Positions 6,182-55,279 of a DNA stretch of 57,662 bases are shown here, piece after piece (the stretch's first letter is position 1; every line of letters begins with the position of its first letter). The notes under the pieces were generated by a model that worked only from the letters and a program-made list of their open reading frames with translations, did no database searches and was not told the origin of the DNA. Origin of the DNA: a virus. Both the position numbers and the translations under genes were made by a program. Location: the IMG/VR virus record IMGVR_UViG_3300032676_000752, positions 1-57,662 of that record; one strand, 5' to 3'.

Positions 6182-7786
6182 ATGAGCAGGAAAGTCTTAT
6201 CAGGACCGGAAATCCGCGCGGCACTCTTGCGCGGCGTCAACACGCTGGCCAACACTGTTACGGCAACCCTCGGACCAAAGGGCCGTTGCATCATCCTCGA
6301 ACGTAATCCCATGTGGCCGCCAGTCGTTACAAAGGACGGCGTGACTGTGAGCAAGGAAGTCCGCGACCTAGCCGACCCCTACGAGAACGCCGGCGCGCAG
6401 CTCATCCGTGAGGCAGCCAGCAAGACGAGCGACCAGGCGGGAGACGGCACCACCACGGCTACCCTGCTGGCCCAGCGCATCTACCAGAAGGGTCTGGAGT
6501 GCCTTGACGCAGGAGCCAACCCTGTCGCCCTCAAGCGCGGCATCGACAAAGCCGTAGCTGTCGTGGTCGAGCACATCAAGACTATCGCGCAGCCGGTAGA
6601 GGACAACGAGACCATCGCCCGGGTGGGCACCATCTCGTCAAATGGCGACCGCTCCATAGGCGACCTGATAGCCGACGCCATGCACCGCGTAGGCCGGGAC
6701 GGGGTTATCACCATATCCGACTCGAACGATGCCGATACCACGCTCACCGTGTCCGAGGGAATGCAGATCGACCGCGGCTGGTTCCCGCTGCATCCATTCG
6801 TGACCAATCCTGAGCGCCTGGAGACCGTGCTGCACGATGCCTACATCCTGCTCACTGAGCGCAAGATGTTCACCATGACCGACGAGCTGTCGAACGTGCT
6901 GGCGGAGATTGGCAAGAGCGAGAAAACCGTTCTCTTGATCGTCGGTGACTACGACCAGCCGTTTATCGTGACGCTCATCCACAACAACCAACTTGGCGTG
7001 CTGCGGTCTGTGGTCATCAAGGCGCCGGCATTCGGCGACGACCGGCGGGCAGCGCTTGAGGATCTGGCCGTCGTGACCGGCGGGTACGCCTTCACCGAGA
7101 ACTGCGGGCGGGAGTTGGCCAGCATCACGGTTGACGACCTGGGCCGGGCAAGTCAGATCACGGTCGAGCAGAACAGCACCACCATCGTCGGCGGGTACGG
7201 CGACAAGCACGCCAAGGATGTGCGCATGACCATGCTGCGGTCGCTGATCGAGGCGACTGACAATGACTACCAGCGTGAGTTGCTGCGCAAGCGACTGGCG
7301 CGCCTCGCGTCCGGTGTGGCTGTTATCAAGGTTGGAGCCGTCACTGAGGCGGAGCGGAACGAGCGGAAGGACCGCGTTGACGATGCGGTGTGCGCGACTC
7401 GGGCAGCCGTGATGGAGGGAATCGTACCTGGCGGGGGTATGGCGCTGATCCTGTCGATAGATGCGGTGAGCGTTCTGATGGCTGAGCACAGGGCCACCGA
7501 TGACGAGGCCGATGGGATGGCGATTATCATGGACGTCCTGCGCGAGCCCCTACTCCAGATTTGTTCCAATGCGGGCGAGGATGGGACCGAGATACTCAAT
7601 ACCATCGTTCGCGGCGGGCCGGGGATTGGCTACAACGCGGCGACGGGGGTATTCGAGGATCTGATCCAGGCGGGCGTGATCGATCCTTGCCGGGTAGTTC
7701 GGTGCGCTCTCCAGAATGCGGCAAGCGTGGCAGCGCTGATGCTCACAACCGAAAGTATGGTTTGCACAATTCCTGACAAAAAGTAG
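6182..7786 (+). CDS. groEL: GroEL-like chaperonin
   Basis: 534 aa (E. coli 548). The ATP site is intact: GDGTTT at 87-92 with D88 matching the catalytic Asp87, the LGPKGR loop at 30-35, and the second catalytic Asp in [13 protein letters not shown] just before MEGIVPGGG. The apical domain lies at ~190-375. The C-terminus ends IPDKK and lacks the Gly-Gly-Met tail that normally fills the cavity. Other phage chaperonins of the EL type are known; some work as single or unusual rings. GAAAGGA gives a strong ribosome site. Co-location with groES suggests a self-contained folding machine for capsid or early proteins, or for altering host GroE. Confidence 0.97.
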
Positions 7787-8772: not shown

Positions 8773-10013
8773 AAGCGACCGTCTTGGTAGGCGACGTGCT
8801 GACACGGCTGGCGCAGTTAGCTGATAACAGTGTCCAGTGCGTGGTGACGAGTCCACCATACTGGGGCCTTCGCGATTATGGCGTGGACGGCCAGCTCGGC
8901 ATGGAGTCCAGCCCATACGAGTACATCGCCAAGCTGGTCGGAATCTTCCATGAAGTTCGCCGCGTTCTGTGTGGGGATGGAACTTTGTGGTGCAACATGG
9001 GCGACTGCTACGCGAGCGGTGACAAGGGCGGATACGCGCGAAACCGTGTCACGGCTTCAGACTCGATGCAAGCATCGAACTTAGGAGATAACTTCATTGG
9101 AGCGCCTAACAGGCAATGGGGCGGCCTTCCACCTAAGAACCTTATCGGGATGCCTTGGCGTTTAGCTTTTGCACTCCAAGCTGACGGTTGGTATCTGCGC
9201 CAGGACATCGTTTGGGCCAAGCCGAACCCGATGCCGGAGAGCGTCACTGACCGATGCACCAAGAGCCATGAGTACCTGTTTCTGCTGACCAAGAGCGCCC
9301 GGTACTACTACGATCAGAATGCCATTCTCGAAAACTGCAGTCCTGCCACGCACGACCGTCTTTCACAGAACGTTCAAGCGCAAATCGGCTCGGAACGCGC
9401 CCATGCGGGGGGGAAAACTAACGGGAACATGAAAGCCGTTGCGCGCCATCTCCCCGGCAATAAAACTCACAAAGGAACCACAGCCTACGAGAACGGCGAC
9501 AAGCGAATGCGGACCAAGGCAGGACTCGTGGACTATGCCGTGCGGGTTCGCAAGCTGGCCGAGGCGGGCAGCGGGACAAAGAACAACGATAGTTTTGATG
9601 CGGCCATGTCGATCATGCCAGAGAAGCGCAACAAGCGATCTGTCTGGACCATCACGACCCAGCCCTATTCCGAAGCCCACTTTGCAACATTCCCCGAGGC
9701 CCTTGTCGAACCCTGCATTCTCGCCGGAAGTAAAGAGGGAGATATGGTACTTGACCCGTTCTGCGGTTCTGGCACGACAGGGGCCGTGGCGCTCAGGTAT
9801 CAGAGAGAGTTTGTGGGCATCGAACTGAACCCGGCATACGCTGAACTGAGTCGCAAGCGCATCGGAGCAGAAGCGCCAATGTTCAACGATGTATCTGTGC
9901 TCGCCCCAGACTCGGCCTACCCATGGTCACCGGCTGGGCCAACTTCGCCGACGCCTGCTCCATCTTCCACCGTGTCACCGCAATCGAGCGCTGATCGACG
10001 CCAGCCGCAATGA
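8769..10013 (+). CDS. DNA methyltransferase (beta class, N4/N6 amino type)
   Basis: 414 aa. The catalytic motif IV TSPPYWG (27-33) comes first and the SAM-binding motif I DPFCGSGTTGAVAL comes near the C-terminus, the permuted beta-class order. The TSPPY form is commonest in N4-cytosine enzymes, although some N6-adenine enzymes share it. It would modify phage DNA against host restriction; no partner nuclease is adjacent. Start GTG 8769 overlaps the previous stop and has GAAAGGAAAGG upstream. The family usually ends soon after the RIGAEAPMF-like helix; here ~37 more Pro/Ser-rich residues run antisense into the 3' end of terL (131-base tail-to-tail overlap), so the true stop may have been lost by mutation or indel. 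Confidence 0.92.
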   Translation: MKATVLVGDVLTRLAQLADNSVQCVVTSPPYWGLRDYGVDGQLGMESSPYEYIAKLVGIFHEVRRVLCGDGTLWCNMGDCYASGDKGGYARNRVTASDSMQASNLGDNFIGAPNRQWGGLPPKNLIGMPWRLAFALQADGWYLRQDIVWAKPNPMPESVTDRCTKSHEYLFLLTKSARYYYDQNAILENCSPATHDRLSQNVQAQIGSERAHAGGKTNGNMKAVARHLPGNKTHKGTTAYENGDKRMRTKAGLVDYAVRVRKLAEAGSGTKNNDSFDAAMSIMPEKRNKRSVWTITTQPYSEAHFATFPEALVEPCILAGSKEGDMVLDPFCGSGTTGAVALRYQREFVGIELNPAYAELSRKRIGAEAPMFNDVSVLAPDSAYPWSPAGPTSPTPAPSSTVSPQSSADRRQPQ

Positions 10014-11430
10014 GTTGCTGGATCTTCTCCTCGGTGGCTACTTGGTCCGGCTTCCTGTCGCCAGTGAGGAACTGGTTCAGTCCATACAAAGTCTCATCGA
10101 GTACGTCGTCTAACTCGTCACCGGGAACCTTCAAAATAGCGCCCGGCCTGTCCGGGTCTGTCTTCCGACTGGTCAAACTCTCGTATGTCTTGGGACAAAG
10201 GTCGGTGACGATGAATTCTCCCCGACTCAACTTGCCGCTGAGTAGTTGCGCATTGCCTACGCTATCCTTTGCGGCCTTGGTCAGCGTAACTCCGTTGTTG
10301 ATCAGAACATCGTTGATAAGGTCGAGGTTACTCTTGCCTGTCCCTGTGTGCGCGTCCATTGCCGGATCCGCATACCCTGAGACAATCCGGCACTGTTGGC
10401 CGCCAGGCCCTACCCGCTGAATGAACTTGCGGGCGATATGGTGCGCGTACTCCTCCGACTTCATCTTGCGCTCAACGTCCTCGGCAATCTTATAGATGCG
10501 CGTGTTCTCGTGCAGGAAGTATAGGCCTGTCGCCGCCGCTGATCCAGAGTAGCCGTAATCCATCGAAATGAAGTGGGTCATCCACCACTGCTCACCGCAC
10601 TCGGAGTACGGCAGGATGTAACTCTCGTTGAGGAACGGGAAGAAGGCGCCCTCTGTGGCACACCAGCACCCAAACAGTAACTTCTTCTGAATATCAGCGG
10701 TCTGCGACATCAGAGCGGCGACTTTCTCCTCGCCGTACAAGGGGTTATCGGACGCCTTGGCAGGAATGAAGCATGTAGTTTTCATTACTGGCGACTCGTC
10801 TTCTTTCCAGCGAGCCCCAGCGTACACAGCTCCAGGAATAACCGATCTTTCAGGATGGCAGAGAGGACATGCATTGTTGAGGAATATAGACATCAGCCAC
10901 GGAGTAGACGGGTTCGCTGTCAATCTGATTCGATTTCTCAACCCATACTCGGGAGGAGTTGCCACCCATGGGAATAGAGACCGAACACGCTTTTCTGTTT
11001 GAAACTGTGCCTCATCGATGCCTAGCCATGAGATAGGCTTTCCAGTGTACAGCTCAACGTCTGAGTCTTTAGCCATGTATCCCAGACGCATTTGTCCACC
11101 GGCAGGGAAACGCCAGAGGCGACCGCCCTCACTCTTCCGTCCTCCGAGGGGCTCATAGATTTTCTTCATCTCATCCATGATGTTTGCCATCTCAGTGAAC
11201 GACTTACGAAGGAGAATACCGCGAAAGTTGGGGTTATCAAATTCTTGAGCGGAATCTCCTACCAAACTCGATGTTTTTCCTCCGCCTGAACTTCCCCCGA
11301 AAAGCGCTAACTGCGCACGGCAGTTGATGAGTGTCATTTGTGGGGGGCAGTTAGGTGCCCATCCAGACACAGCGTGAACGTCTGCGGGAAGGGGTATGAT
11401 ACCTCTATTTTCAAGAAGGGTTAAGGCCAT
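9883..11430 (-). CDS. terL: Terminase large subunit
   Basis: 515 aa. The ATPase has Walker A GGSSGGGKT (45-53) and Walker B WLGIDEAQ (135-142), followed by a motif-III-like LTANPS. The nuclease half has FISMDYGYSG (RNase H-like first Asp), GYADPAMD (second Asp) and DDVLDETLYGL near the end. It pumps DNA into the prohead through the portal and cuts concatemers. It is the last gene of the leftward late block and overlaps the homing endonuclease upstream by 20 bases. The 3' end overlaps the opposing methyltransferase gene. Terminase last is the T7-like order. Confidence 0.95.
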   Translation of the reverse strand: MALTLLENRGIIPLPADVHAVSGWAPNCPPQMTLINCRAQLALFGGSSGGGKTSSLVGDSAQEFDNPNFRGILLRKSFTEMANIMDEMKKIYEPLGGRKSEGGRLWRFPAGGQMRLGYMAKDSDVELYTGKPISWLGIDEAQFQTEKRVRSLFPWVATPPEYGLRNRIRLTANPSTPWLMSIFLNNACPLCHPERSVIPGAVYAGARWKEDESPVMKTTCFIPAKASDNPLYGEEKVAALMSQTADIQKKLLFGCWCATEGAFFPFLNESYILPYSECGEQWWMTHFISMDYGYSGSAAATGLYFLHENTRIYKIAEDVERKMKSEEYAHHIARKFIQRVGPGGQQCRIVSGYADPAMDAHTGTGKSNLDLINDVLINNGVTLTKAAKDSVGNAQLLSGKLSRGEFIVTDLCPKTYESLTSRKTDPDRPGAILKVPGDELDDVLDETLYGLNQFLTGDRKPDQVATEEKIQQLIAAGVDQRSIAVTRWKMEQASAKLAQPVTMGRPSLGRAQIHR

Positions 11431-11974
11431 AGTCCTCTTTTGGAAAATTCAATCTTGCAAATTGGCCGCGCAGTTCAATTGCTTTCCTGTCGCGGGCTCG
11501 CGCTGCGGACTCTTTTGTCTTGAAGCATCCAATGTAAGTGTGCTTGTTCAAGTGCGATATGACAGCGACAAAACAGTCATTCTGTCTGTGGGCATAAACG
11601 CCAATGAATCCGCTCGTGTTCTTCCGCGTGGCGCGCGCGTTTTGCTTGTTCTCTAAAACAGTCGAGATACGCAGATTAGAGCGTCGATTGTCTAAGGTGT
11701 GGGTGATCTCTTCGTGATCTCCCTGTCTTGGGTCGCCGCGTTTCAATCCGAGAATCTCGCGGTGCATGTAAATCTGGTGACGCCCACCTATCTCTTTTCG
11801 AGACGACGAGCGGACAGCGTAAAAACTCTGGCTGTTCTCGCACCAGGTCGCGTACCACTTGTAAAGAGACAGCCATTCGTAATCAGCGGCGTCAACGATG
11901 GTCGCCTGCCCCTTTGTGAGTTGAATTGTGCGATACTCGGGAGTGGGCTGGGAAGCCAGTTCAAGCTGGTCCAT
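11411..11974 (-). CDS. HNH-AP2 homing endonuclease between terS and terL
   Basis: 187 aa from ATG 11974, chosen because GGAGGG lies 8 bases upstream; an in-frame GTG at 11989 sits inside that ribosome site. Architecture: N-terminal beta segment (TIQLTKGQATIVDAADYEW), HNH core (MHREILGLKRGDPRQGDHEE and LDNRRSNLR), then AP2-like C-terminus (SGFIGVYAHRQNDCF, HTYIGCFKT). The usual DHxNxDxLDN is altered to DHEEITHTLDN, so the second histidine/asparagine of the site is changed and activity is uncertain. It is a paralogue in architecture of the one after groEL. It separates the two terminase genes, a favourite insertion site. Confidence 0.87.
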   Translation of the reverse strand: MDQLELASQPTPEYRTIQLTKGQATIVDAADYEWLSLYKWYATWCENSQSFYAVRSSSRKEIGGRHQIYMHREILGLKRGDPRQGDHEEITHTLDNRRSNLRISTVLENKQNARATRKNTSGFIGVYAHRQNDCFVAVISHLNKHTYIGCFKTKESAARARDRKAIELRGQFARLNFPKEDYGLNPS

Positions 11975-11977
11975 AGA

Positions 11978-11995
11978 AGCGCCCTCCACGGCGCT
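11978..11995 (-). promoter_or_regulatory. Hairpin overlapping the homing endonuclease ribosome site
   Basis: On the minus strand AGCGCC pairs with GGCGCT (6 bp) around a 6-base loop. The GGAGGG Shine-Dalgarno site of the endonuclease (11982-11987) occupies the loop and part of one arm, so folding would hinder ribosome binding. A similar hairpin-blocked ribosome site is known for T4 homing enzymes; its role here is inferred. Confidence 0.5.
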
Positions 11996-12018: not shown

Positions 12019-12609
12019 TCAAAAGTTGGCCCAGGGATCGTCTTCGACTTGCGCCTCGATCGTTGGCGCGTTTTGAACAGGGGCTTGTGGAACCTGTGGA
12101 GAATAGGTCTGTCCGCTTCGCTGTGTGACCACCTGCCGCGTCTCGGTGATCGAGTGGGTGATGATGGTCTGCTCCGCCGGCCGGTAGATGCGCGGCGCCT
12201 CTTCTTTGGTGGGACCGCTCGACGCGTCGGGTACGAAGTTGTTATCGAGGAGCAGGCCTACCCGCTTGTAGCCCATCTCGATTGCGTTGACCTTTGGGGT
12301 GGCCAGGCTGGGGGTCGCCTCAAGCGTCTTGCGCGGAATCGTGATGACCTGCTTCAAGTTGGCGTCGAGCATCTCGACATTGATAAGCCGCTTCTTGACC
12401 AGGACCGCAGTCACAGCCTTCTCGACGGGCTCCATGCGGCGGGTGATCTCCTCGAATACCGCCTTGCGCCGGTAGAGGCCCATGCCTTCTCTGGACGTAA
12501 AGCCCGCCTCAAGTGCTGCTTTGCCTACATCCCGGCAAGCGCAATAGGCGTCCACGAACTTGAGCAGTTGCGGCTGGAGCGGAATGGGGATGCTGGTATC
12601 GACTTCCAT
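12019..12609 (-). CDS. terS: Probable terminase small subunit
   Basis: 196 aa. Residues ~14-60 (FVDAYCACRDVGKAALEAGF then an arginine-rich helix) resemble the helix-turn-helix of Terminase_2-type small subunits, which bind the packaging site and present DNA to the large subunit. A central helical region (85-140) would form the ring; the C-terminus is Pro/Gln-rich and ends DDPWANF. Position directly upstream of terL, apart from the inserted homing enzyme, supports the call. Sequence similarity alone would leave it tentative. Confidence 0.72.
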   Translation of the reverse strand: MEVDTSIPIPLQPQLLKFVDAYCACRDVGKAALEAGFTSREGMGLYRRKAVFEEITRRMEPVEKAVTAVLVKKRLINVEMLDANLKQVITIPRKTLEATPSLATPKVNAIEMGYKRVGLLLDNNFVPDASSGPTKEEAPRIYRPAEQTIITHSITETRQVVTQRSGQTYSPQVPQAPVQNAPTIEAQVEDDPWANF

Positions 12610-13256: not shown

Positions 13257-13381
13257 CAGTGCCGCTCTCGATTGAAAATGTCGGAGATGGACACGCCCAC
13301 GGCTGGGATGAGTGCTTTCAGGAGTAGCGCAACGATCACGATGAAGATCAGAGCAGCGAGGTTCAGAGCGAGCGTAATCAT
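13256..13381 (-). CDS. Single-pass small membrane protein (41 aa)
   Basis: Nearly the whole first 28 residues are hydrophobic (ITLALNLAALIFIVIVALLL), followed by a short polar tail ending NRERH. The start is ATGA-coupled to the 669-aa gene upstream and the stop is coupled to the next gene. It could be a holin- or antiholin-like peptide, or help anchor an ejected protein, but no family was recognised. Confidence 0.6.
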   Translation of the reverse strand: MITLALNLAALIFIVIVALLLKALIPAVGVSISDIFNRERH

Positions 13382-15387
13382 GCGACTATTTTACCCGTGT
13401 TTCGCTCGACATGGACTGCGCGATCATCGTAAAACTTTTCCAGAAGATCATCCTTCACGTCCTGCATGGGTAGACTTCTCCCGAACACTTTATAAGTCCA
13501 GGCTTCAAGTGCCGCGCGGTTCAATCCTTTCGGATCATCCGATAGTTTCGCTGTGAAGAGCCGCACATCTTTTCCGTCGGCGATATCCTTTTTGGCTCGT
13601 TCCACCAGCGCCGAAACGGGATTCCCTATTTTGAATGACGGTTGGCCCTTGGTCCAATGAGCAAGAGAACCATCGACATCATATCCAATCCAGTGCAATG
13701 CCGGGTTTGGCTTTGGGGAGTGCGGGATAGGTTGCAATTCACTTCCCTTGAATGTACGCAGACCGCCGGGAGAGAGAACGCTCCAACGGCCTCCATTTGA
13801 GAAGTTGGGATTACCACCGTGGACGATGCCGAAGCTATCCTTTCCGATGATCACGGTGATGCCTTTGGATAACTTGACAGGCTCAACTTTCGATGACTTC
13901 TCGCTATCGTTCCGCTCGTTAAACTTTTCCATTGCAGCATCGTTTATAGCTTTGGCCTGCTTCTCTTTCTTTTCGGCGGTCGCATCCTTGCCCTCTAAGT
14001 CGGCCTCGCGCGCTGCATCGTATACGTCATGCTGATGCGCATTGGCTTCCAAGACCTCCTTGGGCACAATGTGAATCTCGGCTGACAACTGCGGCGTCAC
14101 CCGAGCCTGTAGCTTGTGGACGCGATAGTTCGTCGGTGGTGATCCCCTCTCAAATTCGTCCTCGTCTCGGATCACTTTGAAGTGATTCTTAACTGCGGCA
14201 ACAGTGCGCTCGTGGGCATCGCGGGAGTCCACGCCGATCCTGCCGGCCAGAATATCGGGGATGGTGTGGACCGGCTGGCCCTCTTCCTTGATCTTCTCAT
14301 CAATCCGCTCCGGAGATTTCTCAGGCCGAACGGCATCGAATTTTGCTCCGGCAATGCCGCGGGTAACCGCCTTGAGTCCGTCCTCGAATTGCTGAGCGTG
14401 CGCTTTGGCTTGGCTGACAAGCTGCGCGCGGTCCTTGGATTTGTGGAGTATATCGCGACCGGTGGAGGGATCTTTGGAGGGAAAGTCTCGTTGCTCTAAT
14501 TGAACCTCATCAGCATTGCCGTCACGGTCGGTGATTGAGATGGAGTTGACGGTGAAAGTCTTGCCGTCAGCCTCGGTCATGCCGGTGTAGCGTTTCGCCT
14601 CTTCTGGCTTTACGTAGGCAACCGTGGCGTGTGGCTTGTATTCAGGGAATGACCGCTCGGCAAATGTGCCGTGCTTCTCGATCTCCTTTTCCATCCGGCG
14701 CAGGTCGGCAGACTCAACCGGCACAATGATCGGCGCCGCCCCATCGCTGTGCTCGCTAGGCGGGAATGCCTGAGTCTTGCCGAGGGACGCCTCAAAGGGC
14801 GCTTGCTTCTCCAGATACGCGCGAACGCCTGCGGTGTCGCCGTCGATGCCGTACCGCACGGTGATGTGCGCGTCCTCAATCAAACCATCGCCCATCAGAT
14901 CGGCGGGGTCGATAGCCTTGCGGAGTTTGGCGAGCGCTTTGCCTGCATCGCTGTCGGGAGGAATGTCGGCCTGCGTGTAGCCGTGCTTGTACTTCGGTTT
15001 TACTTCTTCCGCATGATCCTTTTGCCCGCCCGGCTTGGCGCTTTCTCCGGCAGTTTGAGCCCCTTGCTGCTGTCCTGCCACTCCTTCACTCCGCTCGCTC
15101 CCAGTGCCTTCTTTGCGCTCGGGGTGTATAGCCATCTCCTCTGGCTTTCTGACTTCGCTGGCATCTTCTTTTTCTCCTTGTCGATGGTCTGCAATTGAAT
15201 CGATGTTGTTCCGACTGCCGTGATACTCATGGGATATTTCCTCTTTTTCTCCATCGGTTGAGGCGCGGCGCACGATAGGTAGCCCAGTCGCTTCATCGAA
15301 CGCCGTTACCTTTCCAGCGGGATGAACTGATCCGTGAGGCCTGAATCCTGCACTTAGATCGATATCGTCTTCGATTGCAATTGCCAC
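13378..15387 (-). CDS. Three-domain protein: 2H phosphoesterase, RelA/SpoT-like, HAD-like
   Basis: 669 aa. Residues ~140-300 carry two H-x-T motifs, H174-I-T176 and H253-A-T255, ~79 residues apart as in 2H phosphoesterases (LigT, cyclic phosphodiesterases, the phage anti-CBASS enzyme Acb1). Residues ~330-460 resemble a RelA/SpoT nucleotidyltransferase: KSPERIDEKI, D378 in IPDILAGRI, NYRVHK (420-425) and E437 in AEIHI, matching the DIxGxRI, GYRSxH and ExQ signatures. Residues ~565-669 form a small HAD-type phosphatase: D570-x-D572-G-S, FTAK (611-614) and YDDR (653-656). Residues 1-135 are charged and probably disordered. It follows the internal virion protein genes without a gap, so it may be ejected with DNA, like the multi-domain 'polyvalent proteins' described in phages. 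The substrate is unknown. Confidence 0.72.
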   Translation of the reverse strand: MAIAIEDDIDLSAGFRPHGSVHPAGKVTAFDEATGLPIVRRASTDGEKEEISHEYHGSRNNIDSIADHRQGEKEDASEVRKPEEMAIHPERKEGTGSERSEGVAGQQQGAQTAGESAKPGGQKDHAEEVKPKYKHGYTQADIPPDSDAGKALAKLRKAIDPADLMGDGLIEDAHITVRYGIDGDTAGVRAYLEKQAPFEASLGKTQAFPPSEHSDGAAPIIVPVESADLRRMEKEIEKHGTFAERSFPEYKPHATVAYVKPEEAKRYTGMTEADGKTFTVNSISITDRDGNADEVQLEQRDFPSKDPSTGRDILHKSKDRAQLVSQAKAHAQQFEDGLKAVTRGIAGAKFDAVRPEKSPERIDEKIKEEGQPVHTIPDILAGRIGVDSRDAHERTVAAVKNHFKVIRDEDEFERGSPPTNYRVHKLQARVTPQLSAEIHIVPKEVLEANAHQHDVYDAAREADLEGKDATAEKKEKQAKAINDAAMEKFNERNDSEKSSKVEPVKLSKGITVIIGKDSFGIVHGGNPNFSNGGRWSVLSPGGLRTFKGSELQPIPHSPKPNPALHWIGYDVDGSLAHWTKGQPSFKIGNPVSALVERAKKDIADGKDVRLFTAKLSDDPKGLNRAALEAWTYKVFGRSLPMQDVKDDLLEKFYDDRAVHVERNTGKIVA

Positions 15388-17666
15388 TATTCCACCACCT
15401 TATAGCCCAACGCGCGGGCATGTTTCGATGCTGCCGCTAAATCACGTTTTGGATTAGCCGCCCGCCATGCCGATTTGCTCCATTCATGGGTTGCTGGAGA
15501 TGGCAGCGGTTTCGGGGTTGGCAATTGACCCGCTGGGATTCTTTCCGGCAATCCCGCCGGCCCAACCTTGAATCCTGCTGGGGCTGGTGGCGTCGGCACC
15601 GGGTTGGACGCCAGCGGCTGCACCCTCATTCGGCTTGTGGCCTCATTCAAGGGCGGTGCGGTCGGGGGTGATGGTAGTGGCGCTCCCTGCGCCCCTGGAC
15701 TGGCCTGCGCGGGCAACTGGAGCACGGCATCCGGTTCGGGCGTGATGACCGCTGGGGTGACCGGCGCTGGCGATCCTGGGCGCGCTGCGCCTTCCGGCGT
15801 GACGTTGAAGCCGGGAGGCGCCCCCGGTGGCGCTGCGGGTGGCTGTGGCTGTCCTGCTGGCCCAACCTCGGCATTGCCCGGTACGTCTGCGGGGAGTTGC
15901 AACTGTGGGTTGGCTAGTTGTCGCCGAGCGGCGCTGAATTGCGGCGGCGGTTCAGGCGGCGGGGTGCGGTCGGGCAACTTTGAGAAAAATCGCTGCAATC
16001 CCTCTTGCACCTGGCCGAGTGGCGTTACGCCGAGTCCCTTCTCGGCAATGATTCTCGCTGTTCCCGAGATTGGGCCAGCGCCCATCGTTCTTGCGCCCGT
16101 CAGCGCGTCCGCGATAGTCGCCTTGACACCCTTCGGCTCCTGAATCAGCGCCTCTTTGGACGCCAATTGCGGGGCAGCATTGCCGAGCGCCTCCTGAGCC
16201 TTCATGATGCTTGACTCTGTGCGCTTGGCTGCGCTGAAATCCTGCCCGCTGGCCTTTTCTAGTTGGTCGTAATACTCACCACGGAGTTTCGATAGCGCGT
16301 CCGACATGGCCGAGTCGACGGTCCCACTCCGGCCGGCGGCAATTGCGTTCTTGCGGAACTGTGGCGCTAGTTCGCGGTTGAGGTACATCCGGAGTTCGTT
16401 GGCCCCGCCCAACGTATCAACCTTACCTAGCCGATCCTTCAGGTCGGTGATGGCTGCCGCATCTTCCGGCGAGAATCCCTCAAGCGATTCAGGGAATGTC
16501 ACTGCGGCCTGGACTGGACGGGGATCGAACGGAGCATTGGCGACGGGCTGGAGTGCAGCTTGGTGCTGATCGTCAATAATCCCCTTGGCTTTGTCGAGCA
16601 GGTTTTGAGTCGCCGCAAGCGCATCTTCCGGCGCTCCCGAGCGAATCGCCTTGACTATCTCTGGATTATCGGCGGCAACCTGCCGGAGTGGACTGCCAAT
16701 GTCCTGGGCGACCTGCTTTGGGAAGTAGTCTTTCCCCATGCCGGTTCCGCGCGCCAGAACGCCGCTAAGTGACTTGTGCTGCCCCTGGGTGTAGTTCTCG
16801 CCCTCGACTGGGCGGTTGCGCCGGAACTGAGTCAGCGCCTCGTCTGCGGTATCCTGGGCGACAGCACGGACGGCATCAGGGAGCGCCTTGACACCCTCAA
16901 TCACTTTCGGCGCCAACTTTCCAGACGCCATGGTTGCGGCCAGAGGAAGCAGCGCGGCGATAGCGCCTCCAATGTCGCCCGCCGCTACGTGTTCTCCGAT
17001 CTGCTGTCCAGCATCGGCGGCCATAGGTCCGAGACCTGGAATAGTCGCTGCTAGTCCATGACCGAGAGCTAACTCGCGGTGCTCAACCGCTTGCGGTGAG
17101 GGATTCATTGAATACCAGGGAGTTGCAGCATCAGCTTGTTTGAATTCGCTTACCGCTTGAGAGCCCTGATCTATGGCGCCCCGTGCAATTCCCTCAAGAC
17201 CCCTTTCGACAATCGCTCCTCCAGGCACTACGGCATTTGCTGCCGATTCTTGCGGATTAGTCGCGTCGGGATTGATCGACTGCGCAATACCTTTGCCAAG
17301 GTTTGTAAATCCTCGCCGCGCTGTTTCCGAGAACCCTCTCGCCGGACGTGTGGGGTCTTGCGTGAAATCTTGCTGATACGCTTCTTCTGGTTTCAGCCCA
17401 CGCTGTGGGATGGGATTCGTGTCGAACTGGTAGCCGAGTTCCTTAGCCTTCGGGACGGCGCTGTATGGAATCGGTAACTTATGCCCGTTGTCGTTCCACA
17501 TCGGATAAACGCCTTCGCCAGGCTTGCCTGTCAGATCGGGAGGCGCGGCGGGTTGGTTACCAAGCGGAACCTCGGTGAGCCCATCCGGAACGCCTTGCAC
17601 CCCAGACGATATTGGGACTTCGGTCAGTCCTTCCGGCACTCCCTCAATTGCTGGACTGGTAGGCAT
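15387..17666 (-). CDS. Large internal virion (ejection) protein candidate
   Basis: 759 aa. The N-terminus has two copies of a motif, GVPEGLTEVP and GVPDGLTEVP. Residues ~180-290 are Ala/Gly-rich and hydrophobic (GLAATIPGLGPMAADAGQQI, AIAALLPLAATMASG), resembling membrane-interacting segments; residues 300-540 are helical; residues 570-720 are a Pro/Gly/Ala-rich linker; the end is basic and helical. No enzymatic motif was seen. Position and size match the gp15/gp16-type internal core proteins of T7-like phages that form the ejection channel. Assignment rests on context and composition, not homology. Confidence 0.6.
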   Translation of the reverse strand: MPTSPAIEGVPEGLTEVPISSGVQGVPDGLTEVPLGNQPAAPPDLTGKPGEGVYPMWNDNGHKLPIPYSAVPKAKELGYQFDTNPIPQRGLKPEEAYQQDFTQDPTRPARGFSETARRGFTNLGKGIAQSINPDATNPQESAANAVVPGGAIVERGLEGIARGAIDQGSQAVSEFKQADAATPWYSMNPSPQAVEHRELALGHGLAATIPGLGPMAADAGQQIGEHVAAGDIGGAIAALLPLAATMASGKLAPKVIEGVKALPDAVRAVAQDTADEALTQFRRNRPVEGENYTQGQHKSLSGVLARGTGMGKDYFPKQVAQDIGSPLRQVAADNPEIVKAIRSGAPEDALAATQNLLDKAKGIIDDQHQAALQPVANAPFDPRPVQAAVTFPESLEGFSPEDAAAITDLKDRLGKVDTLGGANELRMYLNRELAPQFRKNAIAAGRSGTVDSAMSDALSKLRGEYYDQLEKASGQDFSAAKRTESSIMKAQEALGNAAPQLASKEALIQEPKGVKATIADALTGARTMGAGPISGTARIIAEKGLGVTPLGQVQEGLQRFFSKLPDRTPPPEPPPQFSAARRQLANPQLQLPADVPGNAEVGPAGQPQPPAAPPGAPPGFNVTPEGAARPGSPAPVTPAVITPEPDAVLQLPAQASPGAQGAPLPSPPTAPPLNEATSRMRVQPLASNPVPTPPAPAGFKVGPAGLPERIPAGQLPTPKPLPSPATHEWSKSAWRAANPKRDLAAASKHARALGYKVVE

Positions 17667-19654
17667 TATTTTTTCACCGCCTGATATTTTCCGTTGACCG
17701 CATATCCGACAACCGCGCCACTCTTATCGGTGTAGGCGTGGGTAGCGCCGGGAGGTGGGGAAGGTGCTTTCGGGGTAGATGTGGGAGTAGTTCCGCCACG
17801 CACGTTATGGCCGCCCTTCATCTGCGGCAAACCCTCAGCGAGACGATTGGCGGTCAGGCGAATCTGACCGGTCTGCTTCTTGAGGTAATCGAGGTCCGGA
17901 GTGCTGGCTCCTGGAGCCATTTCCATGAGGCGATTGACTTGAGCATCGGACACGCCACCGCCAGCCGATTGCCTGAGAGCCTGCAAGTTCTCTTTGTACG
18001 CCTTGACGTTGGTAACATAATCGCGCTCCTCCGGTGAGAGCCCGCTCGTTGCAAAAGCACCTTGAGCCCATTGGACCGAAGTACTCTTCGGATCAGCAAT
18101 GGCTGTAGCAACTGCCGGATTGTTGAGTTGTCCGCCAGCCTGCACGAGCCGTTCAGCAGTCTTTTCGATGTTATCGGTCGCGCCAAGGACGTCGTTGAAT
18201 TGCGCCGTCTTGCCTTCCTGCTTGATGTAGGGGGCCGCAAGCGAAGTGCCGATAGGTTTACCTGCTGCCGAAGTGGCCCCGCCTTCGAGTTGGTTTCCTT
18301 CTAAGTCAGTTCCGAGCATCTGTCCCGATGCACGAAGGGCGTAGGAGTTTGCCTTCTTCATCTCGGCGTCTATTTGTTTCTGTTTTTGCTCGAAAGCTGG
18401 AGTTCCTGGGGTGATCTTTTCCCTTTCGATTTCGGCACGTAATTGCTGTGTTTTCTGTATTGAAGCTCGCCAATCGCTGAGAGCCTGTTTTTGCTTTGTG
18501 ATAGGCGAGTCGGGATCTTCTGAGTAAGTCAACTTCCCATCTGGTCCTGTCGTAGATTTAAGGCCTAGCGCGGCAGCCCGTTCGTCAGCATTCAATCCGG
18601 CAATGTCTTTTCTTCCTTGAGTGTTAACCCCCGCCACCGCAACCGTCTTAACGGCAGATGCCGGCAAGGACGTTCCAACGAAGGGCTTTAGCGCTGCATT
18701 CTCTTCACCCATAGCGGCAGTGATTGGAATGGGCTGTTCTGATTCAGTTCTGGCTTGCTCTTCTGCTGTTTTCGTATTTGCTGCGCCCTGTGTGAGTTGC
18801 TGTTGGAGATTCGCAGTCATCCCGGCGTTACGCCTGGCTGCGTCAGAGAACGCGCGAGTCGGTGCGCCGTATGGAGTTGCGCCTACCGCAGCCGGATCGA
18901 CTGCGCCCATGAGAGCGCCAGCTATGCCGTGCTCAGCCAAACCCTCAAGGCCAGCCTTCAAGCCTCTGCCAAACCTCTGCCAGCGCGTCGGGTTGTAGGT
19001 CCCGCTGTTCGGGTCATTGGGGTCACGGAGTTGCGGTACGCCTGTCGGATTCGCTGCGGTGCGTGGTGAGTTCGCCGCCGCCAATCGCGACTCAACGGCG
19101 TTCATATCGACCGGCGCGCTGGTATTGGAAGAATTAGGCTTCAAAGATAGTACGCCGTCTTGGACGTTGTTTGGATTGACGGGATTTTCTTGCCCGGTTG
19201 ATGCTCCGTCCATCGGGAGAACATTTGACGGGACCGCCCGCGCGCCCGTCGAATCAGTTGGCGGATTGGGCGCATTGGTCGTCGGCATCTGGGCCTGCGC
19301 ACCAGCCGCAAGACTCTGCCCGAATCCCTCCATTGGGCTCTTGTTATCGAGTGTCATGCCGTATGGTTTGGAGTCTTGCTCCGCGGGCTGGTTGGTTGCC
19401 GTGCCTGTCGCTGGCGCCGGCGTCGATGCGGGAGCAACCGCGGCTTGCGGCTTTCCTACCGCCGCGGCAAGAGGGCTCGGTGGAGCAACCACCGGTCGCG
19501 CGGCTGTCGGCAGGGGAAACGGTACTCCCGATTGGTGCGCCGCCAAATACCCGGATGGGTCTCCCGACGCAAGCATCTCCTCCCAATCGACGCCGGATGA
19601 CGCAATCGGGGATGCCGATGGAATTAGGCCTTGAAGTCCGTTCGTGTCCGCCAT
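17666..19654 (-). CDS. Internal virion protein candidate (662 aa)
   Basis: 662 aa, rich in Ala, Gly, Pro, Gln and Thr. Residues ~25-45 read DWEEMLASGDPSGYLAAHQ; residues 60-220 are low-complexity. Residues ~330-620 are helical and charged, with coiled-coil character (DWRASIQKTQQLRAEIEREK). The C-terminal ~35 residues form a compact beta motif (ATHAYTDKSGAVVGYAVNGK). It begins a few bases after the 192-aa Ala-rich protein and runs directly into the 759-aa gene. Gene order suggests an ejected internal protein; no enzyme domain was recognised. Confidence 0.6.
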   Translation of the reverse strand: MADTNGLQGLIPSASPIASSGVDWEEMLASGDPSGYLAAHQSGVPFPLPTAARPVVAPPSPLAAAVGKPQAAVAPASTPAPATGTATNQPAEQDSKPYGMTLDNKSPMEGFGQSLAAGAQAQMPTTNAPNPPTDSTGARAVPSNVLPMDGASTGQENPVNPNNVQDGVLSLKPNSSNTSAPVDMNAVESRLAAANSPRTAANPTGVPQLRDPNDPNSGTYNPTRWQRFGRGLKAGLEGLAEHGIAGALMGAVDPAAVGATPYGAPTRAFSDAARRNAGMTANLQQQLTQGAANTKTAEEQARTESEQPIPITAAMGEENAALKPFVGTSLPASAVKTVAVAGVNTQGRKDIAGLNADERAAALGLKSTTGPDGKLTYSEDPDSPITKQKQALSDWRASIQKTQQLRAEIEREKITPGTPAFEQKQKQIDAEMKKANSYALRASGQMLGTDLEGNQLEGGATSAAGKPIGTSLAAPYIKQEGKTAQFNDVLGATDNIEKTAERLVQAGGQLNNPAVATAIADPKSTSVQWAQGAFATSGLSPEERDYVTNVKAYKENLQALRQSAGGGVSDAQVNRLMEMAPGASTPDLDYLKKQTGQIRLTANRLAEGLPQMKGGHNVRGGTTPTSTPKAPSPPPGATHAYTDKSGAVVGYAVNGKYQAVKK

Positions 19655-19663
19655 GCGTTCCCC

Positions 19664-20242
19664 CTACTTCTTTCCCACGTAAGCCGCGCCTATCTGTCCG
19701 GCACCAGTAATAAGCCCCTGCCCCAGTTCATCCATAAAGCTCGGCGTCTGCGCGGCCTGCTCCTCGGTGCTTGCCTGGCCCTGAGCCGTGTTCGATTCCT
19801 GAGAGGCAAGATTCTGCTGCGCCTGCGTGATCTGCCCTTCCGCTCCGAGCACGTCCTGGCCGTACTTTGCCCCCGCCGCAAGCCGGCTCTCGGTCGCCCC
19901 AGCCTCCTGGGTGCCTAGCATACGCTGTGCCGCTTGCTGCTCCGCCTCACCTGCCGCCACGCCGGCCGATGCGTTCTGCCCGGTTCTCTGAGCCTGCGTC
20001 TGGTTCTTGGCCGCCGCCGCCGCCGCTGTCGCATCCGCCGTTCCTGCCAACTGGCGATTCGTCACCGAATCCATCTGGCCGCCCTGGACATAGGGATTAT
20101 TGGCCGCGAACTTGGCGAGTTGGCTCTGCTGTGTGCCAATGTCGGCCTGAGTCGCGGCATCCGACGCCTGCGTTTCCGCTGTGCTTGTCGCGGTATTGGC
20201 CTTCTCGGTATCAACGATGTCACCTTGCTGGGCACGGCTCAT
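19664..20242 (-). CDS. Ala/Gln-rich internal virion protein candidate (192 aa)
   Basis: 192 aa, dominated by Ala, Gln, Thr and Gly, with a long predicted helix (residues ~15-150) and a short Gly/Ala-rich C-terminus (LGQGLITGAGQIGAAYVGKK) that could insert in a membrane. Length, composition and place directly upstream of two ~700-aa proteins match T7 gp14, the ejected outer-membrane pore protein, and gp7-like proteins of P22. Its start overlaps the stop of the acetyltransferase-like gene (ATGA). Confidence 0.6.
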   Translation of the reverse strand: MSRAQQGDIVDTEKANTATSTAETQASDAATQADIGTQQSQLAKFAANNPYVQGGQMDSVTNRQLAGTADATAAAAAAKNQTQAQRTGQNASAGVAAGEAEQQAAQRMLGTQEAGATESRLAAGAKYGQDVLGAEGQITQAQQNLASQESNTAQGQASTEEQAAQTPSFMDELGQGLITGAGQIGAAYVGKK

Positions 20243-29864: not shown

Positions 29865-30389
29865 TTACTGAATCACTAAGGTTTTCGAATCGATCGTCCC
29901 GTCGGCGGAAGCGGATGATACGCCGATATTTGGTACGTCTGGATCGTTCTTACCCTTACGAACAGCCAACTCTTCTCGAACCGCTTGTGAGGCTAGGCCT
30001 CTATTCTTTCCGTTATCTTCCAGGTTGTTGACTTCTAACCACACTCGCATGAGCTGCATGAACAAACGCTCTGGTTTGACCCGGCGAGGCTTCGGTTGGG
30101 CGACATCTATGCGCTCGGCAAACAACGGCAAATTCTGATCCTCGATCAATACTTCCAGATCAGGACCATTAAAATGGAACCATTCCCCGTTAAGTCTCTG
30201 CGCGGCGTATCGCTTATGCAGGTAGGTTTCCAGTTCCACGCAGTTTACGGTTTTCCAGACAGCAAAAATCTCCAACTCAAAAGGGAGCAAGATTCCTAAT
30301 TCCCTCACGCGAACGCGCGGACTCAAGGCTCTTCCTATCTTGTACCAACTATGCCTTTTAGAGCCAATCAAGTAAACGAACCCGCGCAT
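29865..30389 (-). CDS. T5orf172/GIY-YIG-type endonuclease
   Basis: 174 aa. Residues 4-70 have the T5orf172 / MUG113 form of the GIY-YIG fold: VYLIGS (5-10), YKIG (16-19), an arginine-rich helix (SPRVRVREL), the glutamate helix ELETYLHKRY and GEWFHF. The C-terminal ~100 residues are unrelated. Single GIY-YIG proteins between phage structural genes are usually free-standing homing endonucleases. Here it sits between scaffold and capsid genes, preceded by a structured spacer. GAGGAA precedes ATG 30389. It is more A/T-rich than its neighbours, consistent with insertion. Confidence 0.82.
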   Translation of the reverse strand: MRGFVYLIGSKRHSWYKIGRALSPRVRVRELGILLPFELEIFAVWKTVNCVELETYLHKRYAAQRLNGEWFHFNGPDLEVLIEDQNLPLFAERIDVAQPKPRRVKPERLFMQLMRVWLEVNNLEDNGKNRGLASQAVREELAVRKGKNDPDVPNIGVSSASADGTIDSKTLVIQ

Positions 30390-53079: not shown

Positions 53080-53256
53080 ATGGGAGTTTTAGGAAAAAGG
53101 GAAGCGAATCGCAAGCCGGCAATCCATCGGACGGTGGTAATCGGGATTCGCCTCACGCCGAAAGACGCGAACAAGCTGCGCGCTGAAGCGGAGGCGATGG
53201 GCCGGACACTGGCCGGGCATGTGGTGTATTTGCTCAGGAAAGGTGGGGCACTGTAA
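53080..53256 (+). CDS. Ribbon-helix-helix protein (58 aa)
   Basis: 58 aa: basic N-terminus (KREANRKPAIHRTV), strand VVIGIRLTPKDANKLRAEAE, then a second helix (LAGHVVYLLRKGG), the layout of small ribbon-helix-helix DNA-binding proteins. GAGG precedes ATG 53080. Its stop overlaps the exonuclease start (TAATG), so it may autoregulate the recombination genes. Confidence 0.65.
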   Translation: MGVLGKREANRKPAIHRTVVIGIRLTPKDANKLRAEAEAMGRTLAGHVVYLLRKGGAL

Positions 53257-54242
53257 TGGCGGTATACGAAGCGAAAGAGAGTTACGCGACATCACGCGCT
53301 GGCGGGATCGGCGGAACGGACGCCAGTGCTATCTTGGGATTGAGCCCATGGAAGCGCCCCATCGACATTTACGCCGGCAAGGTCAACCCTGGCGCCCAGC
53401 CCGAGTTAGACAAAGAGTGCCTCTACTGGGGAAGCGCTCTTGAGCCAATCGTGCGCGGTCGTTACGCTGAGCGGTTTGGTGTAGCTGTCACCGCACCGGC
53501 AGACCTTGCGCCCATCTTCCCCAAGTCCCGGCCCTGGCGCGATTCAACGCTGATCGAGGGGTCGGAGCCGTGGATGCTTGGCGCGCCGGATGGGTGGATG
53601 CCATCGGTCAACACTGGGCTCGAAATCAAATGTGCCTCACGCAAAAGCGACGAGTGGGGGCCGGAAGGATCGGACGAAGTTCCGGCGCATTACTTGGTTC
53701 AGGCCGCCTGGTATACCGCCGTCTGCAATGCGCGCGGCTGGAACTTTGGCGTCCTGTTCTCCGGTAACACCTTGGCGCAGTACCGCATCGAGCGCGATCT
53801 AGAGCTTGAGAAGAACATGATCGAGGCTTGCCGGTCGTTTTGGTTTGATAACGTACTCAAGCAGGTCGAGCCGGACATCGACGAGAGCGAGAGCTACGGC
53901 AAGTATCTCGCGCGCAAGTTCAGCCTCAACACCGGCAAGGTACTCAGCCCGACTCCCGATATACTCCACTGGGCCAGCGAGATGAAGGCCGCCGACGACG
54001 AGGAGAAGGAAGCGGCGGAGCGGAAGCAGTTGGCGAACAACCATCTCCGGGCACTGCTTGGCGACGCTCAAAAATGCGTGACGCCTCTCGGTTCGATAGG
54101 CTGGGTGCGGCCGGAGACCAAAGACGCGACCAATTGGAGCGAGGTTGGCAAGAAGGTTGGCCCACTACATCCCGATGTGGTCAAGGAATTCACGGCGCCG
54201 AAAGAGATCACGGCTTACTTGCGGGCGTGGTGGAAGAAGTAA
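53256..54242 (+). CDS. YqaJ-type viral recombinase exonuclease
   Basis: 328 aa. Motifs of the YqaJ/lambda-exonuclease fold: GIGGTDASAILGLSPW (17-32), E63 in LYWGSALEPIVRGRY, and the catalytic core APDGWMPSVNTGLEIKC (D and E-x-K). A helical C-terminal half with acidic segments follows. It would resect one strand from double-strand ends, feeding RecT. The two-gene pair with recT is the standard phage recombination module. Metal residues D, E and K are visible. Confidence 0.9.
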   Translation: MAVYEAKESYATSRAGGIGGTDASAILGLSPWKRPIDIYAGKVNPGAQPELDKECLYWGSALEPIVRGRYAERFGVAVTAPADLAPIFPKSRPWRDSTLIEGSEPWMLGAPDGWMPSVNTGLEIKCASRKSDEWGPEGSDEVPAHYLVQAAWYTAVCNARGWNFGVLFSGNTLAQYRIERDLELEKNMIEACRSFWFDNVLKQVEPDIDESESYGKYLARKFSLNTGKVLSPTPDILHWASEMKAADDEEKEAAERKQLANNHLRALLGDAQKCVTPLGSIGWVRPETKDATNWSEVGKKVGPLHPDVVKEFTAPKEITAYLRAWWKK

Positions 54243-54360: not shown

Positions 54361-55185
54361 ATGGCAGACCAGCAGCAGCAGTTAGCAACCATCCCCCCGC
54401 GTCAAGGTATCATCGCCAAGTTTGGCGAGCGGTACGACCTGGAACCCAACAAAGTCCTAGCTATCGTAGCTCAGACTGTTTTCAAGGGCAGCGACAAAGA
54501 ACCTCCCTTGTCGAACGAGGAAGTTGCGGCGGCCCTGATCGTCTGCAATGCCTACAACCTCAATCCATTCACCAAGGAAATCTACGCCTTTCGCTCCAAG
54601 GGCAAGCTCCTGATCGTCGTCGGCGTGGACGGATGGGCGGCAATCGTCAACCGGCATCAGGAACTGAACGGCATCGAGTTCGAGGAACACTTCGACGACA
54701 AGGGCAACATTCGCGCCGTCACATGCAAGATCCACCGCAAGGACTGTGCGCTCCCGGTTGTCGTCACTGAGTACACCCACGAGTGCCGGCGTGAGTCGAT
54801 CCCCTGGCAGACGATGCCAATCCGCATGACGCGCAACCGGGCATTCGTGCAGTGCGCACGTGTGGCATTCTCGGTCTCTGGCATCATCGACAATGACGAG
54901 GCGCAGACCATCGAGGGAAGCCCTGAGTTTGTTTCGAGCCAAACCAAGGCGATCATCGACCAGTCGATCAGCAAGACCGAGGCGGTCAAGGCTGTGATCC
55001 AAAAGCGGGCGCAGTCGGCGGGCAAGAGGCAGCAGGAGGCGCCGCAGGTTGAGCCACAGCCCGAGGCGCAGCCCGCGCAGGAAGCGCAGCAGGCCGAACC
55101 GGCGCAGGAGCAGAAGCCCGCGCAGGAAACCCAACAAGCTCAGCCGGAGTACCCCTACGCAGGCGAGGATAAGGGGCTCTGGTAA
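54361..55185 (+). CDS. recT: RecT-type single-strand annealing protein
   Basis: 274 aa. It has the RecT pattern: PPLSNEEVAAALIVCNAYNL then NPFTKEIYAFRSKGKLLIVV and DGWAAIVNRH, followed by MPIRMTRNRAFVQCARVAFS. RecT binds single-stranded DNA and anneals complementary strands. The last ~45 residues are Gln/Ala/Pro/Glu-rich and disordered. It is preceded by GAAAGG and forms a recombination pair with the upstream YqaJ exonuclease. Confidence 0.93.
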   Translation: MADQQQQLATIPPRQGIIAKFGERYDLEPNKVLAIVAQTVFKGSDKEPPLSNEEVAAALIVCNAYNLNPFTKEIYAFRSKGKLLIVVGVDGWAAIVNRHQELNGIEFEEHFDDKGNIRAVTCKIHRKDCALPVVVTEYTHECRRESIPWQTMPIRMTRNRAFVQCARVAFSVSGIIDNDEAQTIEGSPEFVSSQTKAIIDQSISKTEAVKAVIQKRAQSAGKRQQEAPQVEPQPEAQPAQEAQQAEPAQEQKPAQETQQAQPEYPYAGEDKGLW

Positions 55186-55279
55186 ACAAGTTTCCCGCCG
55201 TCGCGCCCTGGTATTGTGCTCTGCGATGCACGTAAACCTGAAGAGGCGGCGGGAATTCAAACGAAAGGAAAGGTACGGC

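Follow-up and report, generated by a model that had tools for sequence, protein, structure and literature searches.

The virus record IMGVR_UViG_3300032676_000752 (57,662 nucleotides, analysed at its full length and called the window here), from a phage represented by metagenomic sequence alone, encodes a protein of 669 amino acids (aa) in which three enzyme domains are joined: a 2H phosphoesterase, a RelA/SpoT-type synthetase and a HAD phosphatase. The gene occupies a conserved slot among virion genes, and its 2H, RelA-like and HAD domains are a recurrent set, new here, that is found with the domains in shuffled order in other phage proteins. It is proposed, with slightly more confidence than doubt, that the protein serves a tailed phage as a compact polyvalent effector, ejected with the DNA, whose three ribose-phosphate enzymes counter host defence.

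The gene and its parts are laid out below; relatives from IMG/VR are given by locus number.
13378..15387, minus strand: gene encoding the three-enzyme polyvalent protein (669 aa), starting at GTG; close homologues in L002, L006 and L008
15007..15387, minus strand: disordered N-terminal part, residues 1–127; the conserved stretch HPAGKVTAFDEATGLPIVRR is kept in L002 and L006
14488..15006, minus strand: 2H phosphoesterase domain, residues 128–300, with H174xT and H253xT; assigned by PF13563, VIA-align 2 and HxT conservation
13882..14436, minus strand: RelA/SpoT-type synthetase domain with C-terminal helices, residues 318–502; R354, K357, K365, D378, Y421 and E437
13720..13872, minus strand: small beta-rich linker domain ahead of HAD, residues 506–556; predicted strands, SH3-like by eye
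13381..13713, minus strand: HAD phosphatase domain, residues 559–669; D570, D572, T612, K645, D654 and D655

Three enzyme domains in one polypeptide

An AlphaFold2 model of the whole protein, built from an alignment of 25 rows (the window plus IMG/VR sequences), has a mean predicted local distance difference test score (pLDDT) of 75. The 2H and RelA-like domains score mostly near 90, the linker and HAD domain mostly in the 70s–80s, and residues 1–129 below 50. The linker is modelled with strands at residues 511–514, 519–525, 534–539, 542–547 and 551–554, and has tblastn matches in L002, L006, L008, L013, L027 and L028. The ratio of nonsynonymous to synonymous substitution rates (dN/dS) is 0.35–0.53 in the N-terminal part, against lower values in the 2H and RelA-like domains. 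The original prediction, made from the letters of the window, had placed these three folds in the protein and had named H174xT, H253xT, D378, Y421, E437, D570 and D572 as catalytic; every one of these residues is found where it was placed, and the three domains are recovered, the 2H domain above its Pfam cut-off, the RelA-like domain by fold and invariant residues, and the HAD domain by its motifs. Chance similarity is ruled out by agreeing folds and invariant residues and, for the 2H and RelA-like domains, also by selection.

PF13563 (2H) matches residues 172–291 at E 1.9e-9, over its gathering score, and a LigT_PEase Pfam match is weaker and under its cut-off. Structural alignment of the 2H region (residues about 130–300) with VIA-align 2 gave matches to Thermus thermophilus TT0787 (1iuh; Z 15.2), LigT and Usb1 (both Z 13.9) and Acb1 (7t26; Z 13.1, root-mean-square deviation (rmsd) 2.6, 134 residues aligned), and Foldseek was in agreement on both the 2H and the RelA/SpoT-type folds. 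The two HxT motifs and internally duplicated fold of the 2H superfamily are both present, and both motifs are kept in 13/13 2H sequences (alignment A11). The domain is under purifying selection (dN/dS 0.114 against L002 and 0.125 against L006). Its PHROG match is phrog_755, 'RNA ligase'. Sequence searches against the PDB were uninformative: phmmer with the 2H and HAD domains returned chance-level matches only, the alignment A5 profile placed ribosomal mL44 at the top (E 0.012) and Acb1 at E 0.59, the alignment A3 profile had no match and the alignment A6 profile had chance-level matches only. As modelled, the 2H domain resembles RNA 2′,3′-cyclic phosphodiesterases as much as Acb1. Its earlier assignment to the degraders of cyclic oligonucleotide signals was too narrow, as TT0787, LigT and Usb1 are as near as Acb1.

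The RelA-like domain superposes on the small alarmone synthetase fold. Residues 318–502 align with Bacillus subtilis SAS1 (5dec) at Z 15.9 (rmsd 3.4, 175 residues aligned), and further matches include other SAS/RelP structures, CapRel (Z 12.7) and Tas1 (Z 12.3). PF04607 (RelA_SpoT) matches residues 356–428 at E 3.3e-4 and 21.3 bits, rescored to 24.8 bits in a single-genome scan. The residues R354, K357, K365, D378, G415, E437 and Y456 are invariant in 14/14 RelA-like sequences (alignment A11), whereas Y421 is kept in ten of the 14 (F, F, A and L in the others) and H424 in six. Comparison of the family profile with two targets, Escherichia coli RelA and SpoT, gave weak scores; K357, K365, D378 and E437 fall on matching residues of both, Y421 aligns with the G-loop Tyr of RelA, the residue by which the acceptor base is coordinated, and R354 meets an Arg of SpoT across a gap and is offset by one residue in RelA. 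In the toxin FaRel2, residues K66 and K74 are described as touching the ATP phosphates (PMC11782079), and the K357–K365 spacing equals theirs. From these alignments, the ATP-donor site looks intact and the acceptor site variable. The domain is also under purifying selection (dN/dS 0.064 against L002 and 0.107 against L008). A tblastn search with this domain, run to E 1, drew a blank in both the phage and the plasmid collection, and the best row of the family profile against PDB sequences is T. thermophilus Rel at E 0.087. The small alarmone synthetases and toxSAS enzymes (SAS1, RelP, FaRel2, CapRel, Tas1) share its fold and donor-site residues, but the domain of the window differs in its divergent acceptor loop, in lying inside a multi-enzyme protein and in sharing that protein with a HAD domain in 13/14 RelA-like sequences.

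The HAD domain is recognised by its four motifs (DxD, T/S, K and DD), which are invariant in 15/15 sequences of a wider HAD alignment; D570, D572, T612, K645, D654 and D655 are likewise kept in 6/6 HAD rows of alignment A11. Its tblastn matches to phage records reach 4e-11, and stand-alone phage genes of 104–134 aa are homologues. A separate model of the domain (111 aa, 15 alignment rows, pLDDT 78.9) has HAD enzymes as its best structural matches, headed by the 3′-phosphatase of T4 Pnkp in both Foldseek and VIA (97 residues aligned). In common with T4 Pnkp phosphatase it carries the HAD motifs; it differs in being short and without a kinase part. The PHROG family phrog_1238, 'phosphoheptose isomerase', matches HAD in all 15 sequences (best 1.1e-14; the HAD of the window weakly, at E 0.011, in the scan of the 669-aa protein), and phrog_415, 'polynucleotide kinase', matches 13 of the 15 (best 2.2e-11), the HAD of the window being among the two without. 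Synonymous divergence is saturated in all three comparisons, giving no dN/dS ratio for this domain.

Judging from motif order, the HAD domain is apparently circularly permuted in seven of 13 HAD-bearing sequences (L008, L013, L015, L023, L027, L028 and L030), in which motif I (DxDxTL) is placed after the remaining HAD domain. Both swapped segments match the profile (i-E <0.01) in four of the seven, listed below. The match of the motif-I segment is only weak (i-E 0.27 to 3.4) in L015, L023 and L030, the last of which also gave no hit in a pattern search for motif IV.
L008:5896-7122, ORF with clearer permuted HAD
L013:3-6476, ORF with clearer permuted HAD
L027:6942-15011, ORF with clearer permuted HAD
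L028:6666-15152, ORF with clearer permuted HAD

A recurrent and shuffled domain set

IMG/VR was scanned with the whole protein, the RelA-like part and the 2H part, which gave 14 distinct RelA-like open reading frames (ORFs), the window included. L001/L005/L012, L007, L016, L017, L020, L024, L026, L031, L032 and L033 were left out as the same contig or protein, a check of the sequences having been made for L016, L017, L024 and L032; contig L001 is a copy of the window, nucleotide-identical across the coding part of 13378-15387. A HAD domain is present in 13 of the 14 ORFs, the exception, L029, being cut at its contig end. A complete 2H domain is present in nine, and L027 retains a 2H piece of 44–48 residues. 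Eight carry the full trio (the window, L002, L006, L013, L015, L021, L022 and L023), in the orders RelA-HAD-2H (n=4), 2H-RelA-HAD (n=3) and RelA-2H-HAD (n=1). As some of the ORFs (e.g. L021, L022, L029, L030 and L034) extend past the end of their locus or contig, domains missing there are not proof of absence.

Seen from the 2H side, seven of 11 other distinct 2H ORFs (L002, L006, L013, L014, L015, L018, L019, L021, L022, L023 and L025) carry RelA-like and HAD domains, in a scan whose profile, built from the window, L002, L006 and Tunturi_5, favours near relatives. The remaining four (L014, L018, L019 and L025) show no RelA-like domain; L018 and L019 are close to one another over their first 330 residues. 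Conversely, the RelA-like domain is present where 2H is absent in L008 and L028. In L018:4954-7116 a GGDEF-like domain, at 20.7 bits under the Pfam GGDEF cut-off of 23.8, is joined to the 2H domain, and a similar 2H and GGDEF-like pairing is seen by eye in L025; this is a second case in which a fold that degrades signals accompanies one that makes them. Possible ART or GNAT parts in neighbours of L008 and L002, seen by eye, had no Pfam ART or GNAT match and were rejected as unproven. In two large proteins, the Acidobacteriota jumbo phage Tunturi_5 encodes 2H with ART-PolyVal and GNAT in gp321, and HAD (found by the A3 profile) with NUDIX, ART-PolyVal and GNAT in gp273.

The domains differ in how far they have diverged. 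Identity to L002 is 82% in RelA, 83% in 2H and 50% in HAD, and to L006 it is 86%, 62% and 41%, respectively. L013 is 82% identical to the window in 2H and 71% in the large terminase subunit (TerL), and has no tblastn match to the RelA-like part at E 1e-3. The unequal identities in L013 and L006 argue that the domains evolve separately, as exchangeable modules. A single ancestor with later shuffling is possible, and the recurrence is therefore evidence for retention of the set and not for many independent origins.

Outside IMG/VR, tblastn of the protein against 50,697 phage records matched 17, none with a single place spanning 80% of it; the best place was the HAD part in 15 and the 2H part in two. 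Short-pattern scans of genome contigs, a weak negative, found no relative. PADLOC had no match to the protein, and NCBIfam gave TIGR02258 alone (E 0.027, far under cut-off). Rows of BFVD from uncultured phages, named 'RelA/SpoT' and '2′-5′ RNA ligase superfamily', give alignments several hundred columns long, and the trio may be sitting unnamed in UniProt. The literature searched, apart from the figures and supplementary files of Iyer 2017, contains no account of this exact trio or its recurrence, of a compact 669-aa version or of the permuted HAD; the trio may have been listed earlier in those figures or files. The novelty first claimed for the trio has held to that extent, and the notion that it is unique to this phage is ruled out by the seven further distinct trio proteins.

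Genomic slot and probable packaging

In the window, genes of 1027, 357, 126, 147, 192 and 662 aa are followed by the 759-aa and 669-aa genes, a 125-aa ORF, the small terminase subunit gene (TerS), an HNH-type ORF and TerL. The features that define the slot are as follows.
19664..20242, minus strand: 192-aa gene, possible virion or ejection gene by position only; tblastn matches in relatives
17666..19654, minus strand: 662-aa gene, possible internal or ejection protein by position only; no family match
15387..17666, minus strand: upstream 759-aa gene; no significant Pfam or PHROG match
12019..12609, minus strand: TerS, the slot anchor; phrog_51, E 9.8e-6
9883..11430, minus strand: TerL; phrog_979, E 1.3e-27

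The effector gene begins at a TAGTG junction, its GTG start sharing 1 nt with the stop of the 759-aa gene. TerS adjoins the effector gene in L002, L006, L008, L013, L027 and L028. By tblastn, parts of the 662-aa gene are matched ahead of the effector ORF in L008, L023, L027, L028 and L029, and the 192-aa gene has matches, in kept order, in L015, L021, L023, L027–L031 and L034. In L027 and L028, homologues of the virion-side genes and TerS flank one ORF of 2689 or 2828 aa in the same slot. In L021 an ORF of 3197 aa or more is preceded upstream by homologues of the 126-, 147- and 192-aa genes. The setting of the effector among virion genes, as originally predicted, is borne out; the ejection identity of its neighbours is a matter of position, as 15387-17666, 17666-19654 and 19664-20242 match no PHROG family and have nothing in Pfam better than chance level (E 0.09 or worse).

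The trio-bearing ORF of L021 links this slot to DarB-like antirestriction proteins, a DarB-like part being found also in the relatives L034 and L025. The trio of L021 lies towards its N-terminal end, and its rear half is DarB-like (phrog_10089, 1476.9 bits), with SNF2 and methylase parts. L021 is 33.6% identical to gp69 of the Bcep22-like phage JC1 over 1632 aa, and L034, which has RelA and HAD in its sequenced part, is 32.1% identical to it over 1890 aa. JC1 gp69 is among the proteins reported in virions by mass spectrometry (PMC9144972), and DarB is given as part of the P1 head structure (PMC5512222). The 669-aa protein differs from DarB of P1 and from JC1 gp69 in having no methylase or helicase part; the DNA methylase-helicase dyad of DarB, present in L021, is missing from it. 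Packaging and ejection of the 669-aa protein are a good, indirectly supported inference, drawn from the giant polyvalent relatives in the same slot and from the two DarB-like fusions homologous to JC1 gp69.

Several neighbouring genes are of separate note. The 759-aa gene is a second variable gene adjoining the trio gene; its homologue in L008:1358-5896 has 1512 aa, and that in L002:1-570 has a different C-terminus. TerL is about 25–30% identical to phage-collection proteins among the 12 of 160 matches listed, which gave no close named phage, and the 1027-aa virion-type protein has no match in that collection. In the gap between TerS and TerL, 11411-11989 (minus strand) is an HNH-type gene by eye, 97% identical in L002, against 83% for TerS and 75% for TerL, and without a match in L006 or L008; it looks like a recently moving homing endonuclease. 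Elsewhere, the window encodes a GroEL-type chaperonin (6182-7786, plus strand; phrog_5725, E 4e-145), a RecE-like exonuclease (53256-54242, plus strand), an SbcC-like subunit (55049-57169, plus strand) and a small protein resembling a GIY-YIG/T5orf172-type domain by eye (29865-30389, minus strand).

A proposed counter-defence role and its alternatives

Polyvalent proteins, which occur in phages and in conjugative elements, were defined by Iyer 2017 (PMC5512222), where their packaging in virions is predicted and where 2H and RelA/SpoT are listed, as separate reports, among the phage-type polyvalent domains. For 2H, that source proposes RNA cleavage or degradation of defence nucleotides, and for RelA/SpoT an alarmone-like shutdown; later reviews retain both the counter-signalling and the RNA-repair readings of 2H (PMC7824862, PMC9503650). 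The 669-aa protein shares with this class at least two disparate catalytic domains per polypeptide, a gene near the late or virion genes (here adjoining TerS/TerL in a conserved slot) and domain shuffling, seen in three orders, in gain and loss of domains and in unequal identities. It differs in its HAD domain, which is not named in the text of Iyer 2017, figures and supplements aside.

We infer packaging, ejection, substrates and a counter-defence benefit along the following lines. The effector would be made with the virion genes, packaged beside the internal virion proteins and delivered into the host cell along with the DNA, and all three of its enzymes would handle ribose-linked phosphates. 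The 2H domain would cut cyclic or 2′,3′-cyclic phosphodiesters, either in second-messenger oligonucleotides, at RNA ends made by defence RNases, or both, and the HAD domain would take off the exposed terminal phosphate. The RelA-like domain would use ATP as the pyrophosphate donor to a 3′-OH acceptor, which may be a nucleotide (making an alarmone) or RNA (the tRNA CCA end). Together they would weaken defences that work through nucleotide signals or RNases, and would reset host metabolism in the first minutes. It is doubtful that the three form one pathway on the ribose 2′/3′ position, in which 2H would open a cyclic phosphodiester, HAD would dephosphorylate it and the RelA-like domain would pyrophosphorylate the 3′-OH.

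A number of results weigh against this proposal. Acb1 (PMC9117128), the anti-CBASS 2H nuclease, shares the 2H fold with its HxT/HxT tetrad and has a role in phage counter-signalling, but its Pfam family, PF23474, scores 18.9 bits in the 669-aa protein against a cut-off of 27, and lies under the cut-off in all eight relatives showing a match (best L018, 24.9). PF13563 fits the 2H of the window better; this domain, known from sequence, is also fused to other enzymes. Of the profile searches suggested by the original prediction, that for 2H passes; PF04607 is under its gathering score of 27 in the 669-aa protein and sub-cut-off in every relative showing a match (best L021, 24.7), and Pfam has no HAD match. 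The acceptor-side Tyr, at ten of 14 in the family, does not allow the acceptor to be named. For HAD, the structural match is weak, at most Z 6.9 in VIA and E 6e-3 in Foldseek, and the HAD call rests chiefly on motifs and tblastn matches to phage HAD genes. As phrog_1238 fits better than phrog_415, a sugar-phosphate substrate stays possible. Finally, a Pfam scan of the 669-aa protein found no DarB, methylase, helicase, MuF or metallopeptidase match, such that its packaging has to be argued through relatives, and a blastp comparison of 21 proteins of the window with eight from JC1, gp67 and gp68 among them, found no match at E 0.01, which makes the slot shared with JC1 a positional analogy only.

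That the protein disables signalling defence is one of two live readings. The other, which is somewhat unlikely, is that it is a module for healing or sealing off RNA (tRNA) ends and not a degrader of second messengers: 2H would open 2′,3′-cyclic phosphates, the Pnkp-like HAD would dephosphorylate, and the toxSAS-like domain would act on tRNA 3′ ends. This possibility, not considered in the original prediction, is opened by the modelled match of HAD to a nucleic-acid 3′-phosphatase, T4 Pnkp leading the HAD fold matches in both programs, and is favoured by the phrog_415 matches of most HAD sequences, by the LigT and Usb1 matches of 2H and by the match of the RelA-like part to CapRel, a tRNA pyrophosphokinase. 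Set against these, the HAD of the window itself has no phrog_415 match, phrog_1238 matches all 15 sequences, and Iyer 2017 states that polyvalent-type 2H was never met together with RNA ligases (PMC5512222). RNA ligase PF09414 is not found in the window or in the 16 records behind the loci (records that are possibly fragments, L001 being the window copy and L002 and L006 left out), which is a mild argument against repair by ligation.

A host-attack or superinfection toxin is improbable. Here the RelA-like domain would be the main weapon, with 2H and HAD accessory or regulatory, and as a toxSAS it would make (p)ppApp/(p)ppGpp or pyrophosphorylated tRNA (tRNA-PP) to shut down the host or exclude rivals. 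In its favour, the RelA-like domain is no less conserved than 2H, and more so than HAD, by its identities to L002 and L006, has the dN/dS of 0.064 given above, is kept in L008 and L028 where 2H is absent, and has Tas1 and CapRel among its fold matches; the alarmone-like shutdown suggested by Iyer 2017 would fit. The four relatives with 2H and no RelA-like domain argue that RelA is not the sole valued module. It is very improbable that this is a virion protein whose domains have lost catalysis or persist as structural relics: the sub-threshold RelA_SpoT score, the varying acceptor-loop residues and the 2H remnant of L027 would agree with it, but the active-site sets are invariant in 2H (13/13), in the RelA donor site (14/14) and in HAD (15/15), and 2H and RelA are under purifying selection.

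The original prediction is real and well read, somewhat over-specific in function, and describes a testable variant of an established class. The recurrence and re-ordering of the trio indicate that 2H, RelA-like and HAD domains tend to stay together, and 669 aa with three well-predicted domains is a small, expressible form, the more distant trio-bearing relatives having about 2000 residues or more. With it, the 2017 prediction of injected enzymes that rewrite host nucleotide signals becomes directly testable. If the single-pathway reading were true, a single polypeptide delivered by the virion would convert a host defence signal or a cut RNA end to a 3′-pyrophosphate product that is inert or favours the phage. 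More generally, if the proposed counter-defence role is true, phages would bring a ready-made set of alarmone and RNA-end enzymes into the host before any gene expression.

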